Positions 29,052 through 35,940 of a stretch of DNA of 63,773 nt are shown here, in pieces. The notes below the pieces were generated by a model. It was not told the origin of the DNA. It worked only from the letters and a program-made list of their open reading frames with translations, and made no database searches. How positions within the stretch are numbered: position 1 is the stretch's first letter; each line of letters starts with the position of its first letter. The position numbers were made by a program, and so were the translations under genes. This stretch comes from Flammeovirgaceae bacterium (GTDB lineage Bacteria; Bacteroidota; Bacteroidia; Cytophagales; Cyclobacteriaceae): NCBI GenBank assembly GCA_021299455.1, contig JAJTGQ010000061.1, forward strand, positions 1 to 63,773, written 5' to 3'.

Positions 29052-29067
29052 TTATAGAAAGTTCTGA

Positions 29068-29109
29068 TGTCAATCTTTTTAAATAGTTTGTGACGATAGC
29101 AAAGGCTAC
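29068..29109. repeat. 42-bp repeat, copy 1 (paired with 29235-29276)
   Basis: This block begins TGTCAATCTTTTTAAATA and ends AGCAAAGGCTA. It differs from the copy at 29235-29276 at two positions. Copy 2 contains the last bases after the histidine kinase stop, so copy 1 looks like a duplicate of the gene's 3' flank. Confidence 0.85.
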
Positions 29110-29116
29110 TAATTTT

Positions 29117-29234
29117 TTTTGAAAACGCAAATCCAGGCACCAAATTTCTCAAGACAACATCAATAACTGAATTCCTTGGCCTTTAAAGGAAACCGATTTG
29201 AAGGGTCAGGTCGTAAGACCTGACCACACAGGAA
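29117..29234. repeat. 118-bp direct repeat, copy A
   Basis: This block runs from TTTTGAAAACGCAAATCC to CCACACAGGAA and recurs at 31811-31929 in the same orientation with one substitution and one 1-base indel. It contains a perfect 9-bp hairpin: GGTCAGGTC (29204-29212), loop GTAA, GACCTGACC (29217-29225). It is immediately bordered by the 42-bp repeat on both sides. Confidence 0.92.
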
Positions 29235-29276
29235 TGTCAATCTTTTTAAATATTTTGTGACGAAAGCAAAGGCTAA
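29235..29276. repeat. 42-bp repeat, copy 2
   Basis: This is the second copy of the block at 29068-29109. It overlaps the histidine kinase stop codon region at its end (gene end 29273). The two copies are 167 bp apart and enclose the 118-bp repeat A. Confidence 0.85.
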
Positions 29277-31426
29277 TTATTTTTTAGGAATATCTTAAAG
29301 ACTGTTCCTTCATTCACCTTGCTTTGCACCTCCAGCGTTCCACCCATAGCATCAACATGGGTTTTCACCAGAAACAATCCTTTGCCCTTGCCTTCCACAT
29401 GAAAATGAAATCGGCTGTAGAGCTTAAAAAGTTTTTTTCCATATTGTAGCAAGTCGATACCCAACCCATTATCGCGGAAATCAATTTCTATTTTGTTATC
29501 GACAATAGCTGAAGAGATTTTTATGTGAGGAGGCCGATCCGGATGACGATACTTGATGGCATTGCTCAATAGGTTTAGCAGGATGCTTTGTAAATAGGGG
29601 CGGATCGTATGCACCGTATCAACCTTTTCAAAGTTGATGTCTATCACGGCCTTGGATTGCAGAATATCATTCTCAAGACCATTTAATGTGATAACTAACT
29701 CCTTCTGGAGATTAACTTCCGTTATTGTTTGGCTGAGGTTTTCGCGTATCTCCAAGATTTGTCCGAGGTCTTTCACAATCGTGTCCAACTCTGCACAACT
29801 GAAAATCATTTTCTGTATGATCAATTCTTTTTCCGTAAGGTTTACCTGTTGCCGGGTAAGCAAATGCGACAAGCCAAGGATCCTTGCTACAGGCGCACGA
29901 AGGTTATGCGAAGCAATGAAAGCAAATTGCTCCAATTGAAGATTATAGTCGGTAAGTTCCTTTGTTCTCTTTTTTACTTCCTCCTCCAAATTCACATTTC
30001 TTAAAAGAATATCCTGATTCTGTTCTTCAATAATAGTCTGGGCCTCTTTCAGTTGCACATTTTGATAGGCCATTTGGTCACGCTGGGCGGCTATCTCTTC
30101 TTGCCCTTGTATTAGTTCCTCGTTTTGCGCAGCAATTTCTTCGCGTTGACTGATTAACTCCTCGTTCTGTGTAACTATCTCTTCTTTCTGCTCTTGAATC
30201 TGGCGTGTCCGTTGCAATACCTGCTCCTCCAGTTCCTGGTTAAATTTAACCTGCTGATCTATTCTTGCCCGTGATTCTAGCTGCAACTTGTACCCGATAC
30301 CCAAAGCGAAAATTAGGATTTCGACAATTGTCCCATAAGCGATGATCAGAAAAATATCGGTATAGAATTCTTTGTAAAGAATATATATGCCAAACAGTAT
30401 GCTGCTCCACAGCACTAAGGAGCCAATAAGTAGAAAATAATCTGCTCTTACGTTTTTTCTAAACGCAACAAAGAGAAAGGCAGTTATTGTAGTAAACGAG
30501 AGAAGACAAAACCCAACAGTAATGTCGCGTGAAATGAAAAAAGCATTGTATCGAACCTGAATGTAAATAATTAGTAAGGTGGACAAGATGGTTAAAATAA
30601 GAAATCCTGAATGCCATTTCCGCAATTGGGGGAACCGGGTCTTTGCATCTAAGAAAACGTAAACAAATTCCCCGTAAGCGCCAAGCACAAGTACCGAAGA
30701 AATGAGATTGATATCAAATAGCAATTTGATACTAAAAACGCTGCTTACCCAATAATACAGCCACGGGTTTGTAGTGACCATAAATACAACAAAAAGAATT
30801 GAGTAGAGCGCATGAATGATGTACATTCTCACTTTGCTGAGCAGATAGATGGCAAAATGATAAAGGGCTATCATGGTCAGGGCAATGGCAAGAAAAATTG
30901 AAATGTGGTTCTTGCCGCCTTCATACTGTAAATGGAAAGGAATAACAGCTAGGAAGGTAATCTTTTCATATGGGTTTCTGGCGAACCTCAGCAGAAATTG
31001 TCGAGTAGTTCCCTTAGGCACTATAACCGCCCTTCCGAATACATTAACAGGAAAACGAACGTGGCCATTGTTTGAAACAGGAAGCCACAAGTCACTATCA
31101 ACACTTTTCTGATAAAGACTAAAGATGGGATTATTATTAGCCCGATCCTGAATAACAAAAATGGGATCCTTCACATCTTGATTGAAAACATTAAACCTTA
31201 ACCAGCCATTAAAATCTATAAACGTTTCATCATTAAGCTTAGAAAAACTCAGGCTTGCTGCTTTGGCCGGATCAGGTTCTTGTGATTGAGCTATTTCGGC
31301 TACTTTTAAGATATCTGTAATTCCGTTCCGTTGAGAAACCACAACATCAGCTCCTCCTTGTGCCAAAAGGAGTGTGGGAAACAAGAAGAGTAAACCCACG
31401 AAGATCGATTTTGAAATACTTAACAT
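29273..31426 (-). CDS. 7TMR-DISM sensor histidine kinase
   Basis: A protein of 717 residues from the ATG at 31426 (MLSISKSIFVGLLFLFPTLLLAQ, a signal peptide). Domains: a periplasmic 7TMR-DISM extracellular domain (about 25-185), seven membrane helices (about 185-385), a long coiled coil of QEEIAAQNEELI heptads (about 395-500), HisKA with the phospho-acceptor in FIASHNLRAPVARILGLS, and HATPase with NLLSNAIKY, DNGLGID and GKGKGLFL. It senses an unknown periplasmic or envelope ligand. No response regulator is adjacent. The gene is bracketed by 118-bp direct repeats. Confidence 0.92.
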   Translation of the reverse strand: MLSISKSIFVGLLFLFPTLLLAQGGADVVVSQRNGITDILKVAEIAQSQEPDPAKAASLSFSKLNDETFIDFNGWLRFNVFNQDVKDPIFVIQDRANNNPIFSLYQKSVDSDLWLPVSNNGHVRFPVNVFGRAVIVPKGTTRQFLLRFARNPYEKITFLAVIPFHLQYEGGKNHISIFLAIALTMIALYHFAIYLLSKVRMYIIHALYSILFVVFMVTTNPWLYYWVSSVFSIKLLFDINLISSVLVLGAYGEFVYVFLDAKTRFPQLRKWHSGFLILTILSTLLIIYIQVRYNAFFISRDITVGFCLLSFTTITAFLFVAFRKNVRADYFLLIGSLVLWSSILFGIYILYKEFYTDIFLIIAYGTIVEILIFALGIGYKLQLESRARIDQQVKFNQELEEQVLQRTRQIQEQKEEIVTQNEELISQREEIAAQNEELIQGQEEIAAQRDQMAYQNVQLKEAQTIIEEQNQDILLRNVNLEEEVKKRTKELTDYNLQLEQFAFIASHNLRAPVARILGLSHLLTRQQVNLTEKELIIQKMIFSCAELDTIVKDLGQILEIRENLSQTITEVNLQKELVITLNGLENDILQSKAVIDINFEKVDTVHTIRPYLQSILLNLLSNAIKYRHPDRPPHIKISSAIVDNKIEIDFRDNGLGIDLLQYGKKLFKLYSRFHFHVEGKGKGLFLVKTHVDAMGGTLEVQSKVNEGTVFKIFLKNN

Positions 31427-31810
31427 CGTTCGAAATATACAAAATAGTACAAACTTGTTGAAAGTATAATTTTTTGTACTATCACCTGAACGAAAAGTTA
31501 AAATGAAATGGCGGAAGCATTTCAAATGACCAGCTTTTTTATGGTGCTTATATTACCACACAACAGCATCGTGTGTAAAAATATAAAATTATCGGGTCAG
31601 TCTATTGTTTGCCAACCGGTTTCTTTCGTTCCTGATCATTTGATTGAAAAAGCGATAGCCGTTTACAAGTCCGATCACAATTGCAAGATAACGACACCGC
31701 GCAAGCAAATGGTATTTATTTTTACTGGATGATCACCCGCTGCCATTCCCTACAGGATCTGTTCAAGAGTCCGCTTTTTTCCCTGTGCCGTCCGGCCTTC
31801 CGAACTGACG
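31427..31810. other. Non-coding stretch upstream of the 7TMR-DISM kinase
   Basis: I see no gene here. A TATATTTC sequence on the minus strand (31439-31432) just before the kinase ATG is a possible weak -7 box. Short open frames exist on the plus strand (31508-31732) but show no recognisable protein pattern. The following bases are occupied by repeats. Confidence 0.6.
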
Positions 31811-31929
31811 TTTTGAAAACGCAAATCCAGGCCACCAAATTTCTCAAGACAACATCAATATCTGAATTCCTTGGCCTTTAAAGGAAACCGATTTGAAGGG
31901 TCAGGTCGTAAGACCTGACCACACAGGAA
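31811..31929. repeat. 119-bp direct repeat, copy B
   Basis: This is the second copy of the repeat at 29117-29234, same orientation, 2694 bp away. The hairpin is intact: GGTCAGGTC (31899-31907), GTAA, GACCTGACC (31912-31920). It differs by an extra C (AGGCCACC against AGGCACC) and one A/T change (ATATCTG against ATAACTG). Confidence 0.92.
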
Positions 31930-31998
31930 ATTAAAGGAAACTCGTTTAAGGGGTCAGGTCGAAAGGCTAGACAGTACAGACAAAAGGAAACTCATCTA
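31880..31998. repeat. Degenerate ~50-bp tandem repeat overlapping copy B
   Basis: Three units start with AAAGGAAAC at 31880, 31933 and 31983 (spacing 53 and 50). Units 1 and 2 both continue with GGGTCAGGTCG; unit 2 has lost the second hairpin arm and unit 3 is cut short before the serine hydrolase gene. Confidence 0.8.
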
Positions 31999-35398: not shown

Positions 35399-35940
35399 TT
35401 AAGCTGTTAGTCTATTAAGGGTAGTATGAATTGGCTCTTTTGCTCGCTTTGGTGTCGCGCGGGAATGAGCCGCAAGTAAAACGCCAATGTTCGAAGCACA
35501 CGAATCTGTCCGTGCGGCATTGGGCATAACTCTCAAATATACGCAACTCCGATAAACGAAATTTTCACAAATCCATCCAAAACTGGTTAGCATGACGTAA
35601 TAACTACAAACCTAAAAAGCTAAACAAAAAACTACGTACTGGCATCGGCCAGCGATAGTAGCGGAAAGCCCACAGCGAGGAACGAGCGAGGACTTGTAGC
35701 GGATAGCGCGGCCCCGATGGCACCGTGTATAGGAAGGTGTGCATCGGGGGGCCGTCCACCTTCGCTGAAGCTACGGTGGGCAGGCCCAAACAACCAAAGT
35801 CGTCTGACCGCTTTTTCGGGAGAATCATCAGCGGTCTGACGACTGGTCGGTAAGTCCACCTTCGCCACCATCTTCTCTTAAGCTACAATGGCTAAAAAGG
35901 CTACGGTGCACAGGCTACCACACGTTAGCTAAATAAACAC
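35399..35940. repeat. Palindrome-rich intergenic region upstream of icmF
   Basis: About 650 bp (35328-35976) without a gene. Visible elements: an imperfect inverted repeat GCCAATG (35483-35489) / CATTGGGC (35518-35525); a GC-rich hairpin GGCCCCGATG (35710-35719) / CATCGGGG-GGCC (35742-35753); a direct repeat GTCCACCTTCGC at 35754 and 35851, with a shared GCTACGGTG-x-x-CAGGC following each; and the 15-bp-arm hairpin at 35798-35844. The block GAGCGAGGACTTGTAGCGG (about 35685-35703) resembles repetitive extragenic sequences I associate with Bacteroidota. The short open frames inside look spurious. Confidence 0.7.
35798..35844. repeat. Hairpin with 15-bp arms (same family as 14694-14724)
   Basis: AGTCGTCTGACCGCT (35798-35812) and AGCGGTCTGACGACT (35830-35844) pair at 14 of 15 positions around a 17-nt loop. 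The single T:T mismatch and the flanking TCTGACCGC/GCGGTCTGACG core match the hairpin at 14694-14724. Confidence 0.88.

Follow-up and report, generated by a model that had tools for sequence, protein, structure and literature searches.

Two direct repeats around a sensor kinase gene

The locus described here raises the question of whether two nearly identical direct repeats that bracket a sensor kinase gene form the ends of a movable cassette, or whether the repeats came to lie on either side of a gene that was already in place. The window, by which we mean the whole stretch of DNA that was analysed (63,773 nucleotides), carries on its minus strand an open reading frame at 29273..31426 that encodes a 7TMR-DISM sensor histidine kinase, with the 7TMR-DISM_7TM and HATPase_c families above cut-off and HisKA below it. 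On the plus strand, the left repeat occupies 29117..29234 and the right repeat 31811..31929. An earlier note on this DNA had reported the kinase gene, the repeats, one substitution and one indel between them, and a perfect 9-bp hairpin in each, and all of this was borne out. The substitution is A29166 versus T31861, the indel is an extra C in the right copy, and the hairpin, GGTCAGGTC-GTAA-GACCTGACC, lies on the plus strand at 29204..29225 and 31899..31920. The note had also read the arrangement as a recent duplication or mobile unit, which holds for the repeat itself, a REPIN-type element whose left copy is new in this lineage, but not for the kinase.

We consider it very probable that the repeats are REPIN copies, that the right unit is the older one and the left copy a recent one, and that the kinase is not cargo; template switching would be the route by which the left copy arose. 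The REPIN would be a non-autonomous element of approximately 145 bp, composed of two inverted REP hairpins with outward-facing GTGY tags and a spacer between them. RAYT (TnpA-REP) enzymes are believed to act on REPINs of this kind.

The match between the repeats includes a 97-nt stretch at 99% identity, which is far beyond chance, and the final 68 bp of the two are 100% identical. The 9-bp stem of both repeats forms in DNA folding of the strand. Besides this pair and a target duplication, only one other family of direct repeats of at least 35 nt was found in the 63.8-kb window (70% identity, between two kinase-like stretches). Several features were absent from the earlier note: a 52-bp direct duplication with four mismatches that tightly encloses the left repeat, a degenerate inverted REP (31785..31810) immediately 5' of the right repeat, a second degenerate REP (about 31930..31982) immediately 3' of it, and the recurrence of the hairpin elsewhere in the same genome, where a search found the full unit only twice. 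A known RNA family was rejected as an identity for the repeats, as Rfam returned three matches only, all well under the gathering scores.

A dispersed hairpin with a one-sided tag

The hairpin was searched for as GTCAGGTC-NNNN-GACCTGAC, with the reversed query as a control. The genome from which the window is taken has 14 copies at two or fewer mismatches, ten of which are exact, and none for the control. Exact copies are present in 21 of the 62 genomes of the genus (control, 0/62), and at two mismatches 19 of the 20 same-genus genomes tried have matches. Outside the genus, one of five genomes matched at two mismatches (G039), with a single match versus four in its control; the reversed control at this threshold gives between zero and four matches in other genomes, and so is not always zero. 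A cluster of six REP hairpins (two or fewer mismatches) was seen within 1.9 kb on another contig of the window's own genome (L073, G000 C144, 1201..3076).

The loci in hand provide 32 distinct exact hairpin contexts. A TGY tag is located one or two nucleotides 5' of the hairpin foot in 31 of them, and on the mirrored side in none (0/32). The full GTGY tag is present in 22 of the 32, again with none mirrored, and in all ten own-genome contexts. When the tag was fixed at exactly two nucleotides from the foot, in a first count, only 7 of 32 contexts carried it, and the spacing was then widened to one to two nucleotides. Read from the tagged side, the loop is TTNC in the 32 exact contexts, and a filter for TNNC or GNNA excluded none. 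Loops unlike TTNC occur in G016 (ATAA and ACAA), G024 (GCAT) and G068 (TCTC).

A one-sided tag before a hairpin is described as a mark of REP sequences (PMC6006769, PMC8266576). The hairpin is a REP of this type, a short palindrome repeated at many places, with a tetranucleotide tag on one side, 5' of the foot, although this tag is unlike the canonical GTAG. Extragenic placement was considered only for copies with listed open reading frames. More than 100 copies are given as usual for REPs (PMC2817692), a larger number than the 14 of this genome.

The hairpin encloses RAYT genes in related genomes

In relatives, the hairpin encloses a gene for a RAYT (REP-associated tyrosine transposase). One such protein, P0004 of G024, passes the NCBIfam model NF047646 (REP-associated tyrosine transposase) with 93.7 bits against a cut-off of 80; P0005 and P0006 match the model below this cut-off, with 72.6 and 75.7 bits. 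With P0004 as the query, matches were obtained in 44 of the 62 genomes, and the loci of 30 matches were examined, a 61% fragment in G064 lying outside that set. All six of the longer loci with at least 56% identity to P0004 (L126-L131) carry inverted hairpins on either side of the gene, none with more than one mismatch. These six are all in relatives and include the locus of P0004 itself (L126). Among the other 24, 21 have no hairpin within the stretch examined, some being cut by contig ends. A fragment at 62% (L137) has two hairpins, both on one side, and two loci (L138 and L149) have two-mismatch variants on both sides.

The genome that contains the window has five matches to P0004, at 35-38% identity, and Pfam identified two further Y1 proteins on C103 and C93. 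Of these seven own Y1/RAYT loci, six were read (all but the one on C44), and none of the six (L051, L063-L066 and L142) has the hairpin beside the gene; those on C9, C165 and C68 lie close to the end of a contig. The physical link between REP and RAYT is thus found in relatives and not at the loci read in this genome. Because the matches here reach only 35-38% identity and no hairpin accompanies the loci read, the cognate RAYT of this REP family is absent, unassembled or divergent in this genome.

Architecture of the repeat unit

The unit on C13 of G074 consists of two exact inverted REPs 110 bp apart, and is predicted to fold end to end as a single hairpin. In G080 the two REPs have two and one mismatches and are 111 bp apart, and no end-to-end fold is predicted. 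On C45 of G074 we found one similar REP pair and one copy without REP2. The right unit of the window begins with REP1 on the plus strand at 31785..31810, which has a GTGC tag and a broken stem, and which is intact in G074 C13 and has one mismatch in G080. The spacer follows, then the perfect REP2a (31899..31920) and a degraded REP2b, also on the plus strand, at about 31930..31982. Since it is REP2b that aligns with the REP2 of G080 and the adjoining flank, REP2a is an additional arm.

The right repeat thus corresponds to the spacer and REP2a of this unit. The left repeat is a REPIN copy without one REP, composed of the spacer and a single hairpin whose GTGT tag is on the minus strand. The arrangement of two inverted REPs enclosing a spacer is found in G074 C13 and G080, REP1 of the right unit is degenerate, and the left copy taken alone does not have this form. 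The alignments indicate that the right unit is a REPIN, intact in G074, recognisable in G080, and decayed and enlarged here. This unit (31785 to about 31982) would be the older of the two, as one common to the relatives and decayed in the present genome.

The full unit is a low-copy element. Across the 62 genomes there are two copies here, three in G074, one in G080 and a weaker one in G010, and nine further genomes or places match it over short stretches only. Copies away from the kinase (G010 C516 and G074 C13) have different surroundings. The G010 copy has no recognisable REP1 before the T run; it could be a second truncated copy or a product of decay. REPIN-type copies in G074 were also seen where gene order changes, one adjoining a match to position 35789 of the window and another a match to 33352. 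There are hints from such alignments that REPINs may mark breakpoints in this group.

Origin of the left copy

The kinase has orthologues in G080, G074 and G025, at 97%, 96% and 93% identity, respectively. On the downstream side of the gene, all three relatives have a single copy of the target and no repeat (3/3 empty sites). On the upstream side, G080 and G074 have one repeat, and G025 an apparently collapsed one. Because these relatives have the kinase and the upstream repeat and none downstream, the kinase predates the direct-repeat pair, and because they keep the kinase yet have an empty left site, the left repeat is specific to the present lineage. It would be a recent arrival that postdates divergence from the closest relative found. 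Over 119 positions, a single substitution and a single indel separate the two repeats, whereas the aligned stretch of 29234..31470 shows 2.9% base differences from G080, and this agrees with copying after that divergence.

Both junctions of the left copy can be read. The copy consists of the right unit's spacer and REP2a. Its start coincides exactly with the inner foot of the hairpin of REP1, within a T run that is common to the target, and it ends 5 bp past the GTGT tag. On either side are 52 bp of target. Copy A (29067..29118, plus strand) resembles the single copy in G080 (L117, 9707..9758, an overlap of 52 bp), and copy B (29234..29285, plus strand), which overlaps the 3' end of the kinase gene, carries the changes.

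Template switching is the route we prefer for the left copy, judging from the junctions of this one event. A strand undergoing replication or repair would have taken the right unit, at a distance of 2.7 kb, as its new template, and would then have stalled at the REP1 hairpin. Its return through a short T/A run to a point already copied would have duplicated 52 bp. A stalled template switch of this kind could yield the start of the left copy, its end and the duplication in a single step.

Alternatively, the left copy might be a one-ended or aberrant event catalysed by a RAYT, with the 52-bp duplication as its footprint, which we consider unlikely. In its favour, relatives show a link between the REP family and RAYTs, which are thought to be the means by which REPINs move (PMC3116915), and the end of the copy beyond the GTGT tag is near a CT dinucleotide, the dinucleotide that is cleaved by studied enzymes (PMC8266576). 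However, the other end of the copy carries no REP, the join is not at a CT of the target, and a cognate RAYT was not found in this genome. Long target duplications would be unexpected for single-strand Y1 transposition, and this also counts against a RAYT event. Transposition by a RAYT accounts for the REP family, but not for the lost REP or the long duplication.

The mode of REP spread is still said to be poorly understood (PMC8266576). The locus offers a single recent copying event for which the donor, at a distance of 2.7 kb, can be compared with the copy, the target is seen empty in three relatives, and both junctions are readable; its truncation coincides exactly with the foot of a hairpin. 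It can therefore serve as a small test of copying that does not involve a complete transposition reaction. It is conceivable, if rather doubtful, that REPINs of this genus spread locally by hairpin-stalled template switching as a rule, with truncated single-REP copies and long target duplications as a regular product. If so, template switching would let REPs multiply even after the loss of the RAYT. A second empty site was sought at the own-genome REP on C117 by comparison with four relatives, and none was obtained; in G074 the hairpin is present at the same place, with one mismatch. Our literature search found no paper that joins REP sequences and template switching.

The kinase and its surroundings

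If the direct repeats were recombination sites by which a 2.7-kb kinase segment is inserted, deleted or exchanged, as the earlier note had suggested in proposing a cassette-like exchange of environmental sensors, a gene flanked by two direct copies with 68 bp of perfect identity is what might be seen. We regard this explanation as highly improbable. As an account of how the pair arose it is contradicted by the three kinase-bearing relatives, in all of which the left repeat is absent and the target single-copy. Moreover, apart from the kinase, a 101-aa antisense frame is the only open reading frame of at least 100 aa that lies entirely between the repeats (the family search covered the kinase only). 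From these comparisons, the kinase appears to be a resident neighbour of the element and not its cargo, and would not have travelled with the left repeat.

The earlier note had allowed that its reading would fail if the repeats occurred at hundreds of sites unconnected with kinases and the gene was constant in related strains. The hairpin is indeed present at further sites without an adjacent kinase, and the gene is in place in the relatives that carry it, although the sites number about a dozen and not hundreds. As for the proposed deletion or circularisation of the segment, the 68 bp of identity could in principle recombine, but the assemblies compared contain no deletion junction. Nor do they include a relative in which the repeat pair is present and the gene at this locus is swapped or absent, and an exchange cassette, whether site-specific or homologous, was rejected. 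We also rejected a composite transposon or IS-borne kinase, for which a transposase gene would be expected, as the repeats enclose no further long open reading frame. The next-best matches to the kinase have at most 53% identity, mostly over the kinase domain.

A 4.2-kb segment of G074 (L118, C45, 936..5178), upstream of the kinase and between two REPIN-type copies, carries a histidine kinase (HisKA_3, HATPase_c) and a LuxR-type response regulator (Response_reg, GerE). Six genomes were searched for it, and it was found whole only in G074 and in none of the five others. This segment is the best remaining support for a link between REPINs and sensor genes. It does not make the kinase of the window a cassette, and the locus is no longer tempting as one.

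A short-read misjoin at the REPIN might have created the left copy as an assembly artefact, given that REPs belonging to this family are found at some contig ends of relatives (e.g. G025 C8 and C35) and that the genome of the window is in 176 contigs. However, a substitution and an indel distinguish the two repeats, and 4 of 52 bases differ between the target copies. Neither pair is therefore a plain doubling of a single stretch, which leaves such an artefact with very little probability.

The stretch at 31470..31783 of the window (approximately 313 bp, upstream of the kinase) is common to G025 and missing in G080 and G074. In the latter two genomes the REPIN abuts the kinase leader, and the deletions seem to end next to the REP tag. 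An oxidoreductase gene that neighbours the kinase locus, which we take to be FadH-like, is present in five of the 62 genomes at E 1e-150, and not in G080. In G011 and G035 the DNA upstream of this gene has no match to the window, and a fixed synteny of this neighbour was rejected. As the gene is found in few genomes and the upstream DNA does not match, neighbours turn over there anyway.

Relation to known REP systems and other repeats

The REPINs reported by Bertels and Rainey (2011; PMC3116915) are likewise composed of two inverted REPs around a spacer, with RAYTs in the same genome group, and one Pseudomonas type described in that paper also has a spacing of 110 bp. In contrast to these, the unit here is low-copy, the right unit is decayed and has an extra REP, the left copy is without one REP, and no cognate RAYT was found in the same genome. 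The REPtron of TnpA-REP subclass 2.6, mostly from Bacteroidetes, is described as a RAYT flanked by hairpins that recur elsewhere (PMC6006769), as is the case here. Read by eye, P0004 resembles this subclass in having NHLH and a YIH-NP-like motif. It reads WE and YIHMNP, whereas the table for subclass 2.6 gives WQ and YIH[QN]NP, a comparison of motifs. The hairpin here is regular and has a GTGY tag, whereas subclass 2.6 is described with atypical structures. The GTAG-tagged and CGTC-tagged REPs (PMC3733652) share the combination of a short palindrome and, at one of its ends, a tetranucleotide tag, but the tag of the present family is GTGY and stands one or two nucleotides from the stem. Among the matches listed for papers on REPs and RAYTs of Bacteroidetes, no title names this REP family, which does not prove that it is absent from them.

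Other repeats were seen in the course of these comparisons. A repeat of approximately 190 bp (L118, 4989..5176) has 42 matches in G025, many of which are at contig ends, and is probably another small mobile repeat family. In addition, a stretch of approximately 60 bp in the genome of the window (L161, G000 C117, 903..963) has 19 matches in G080 and represents another dispersed repeat.
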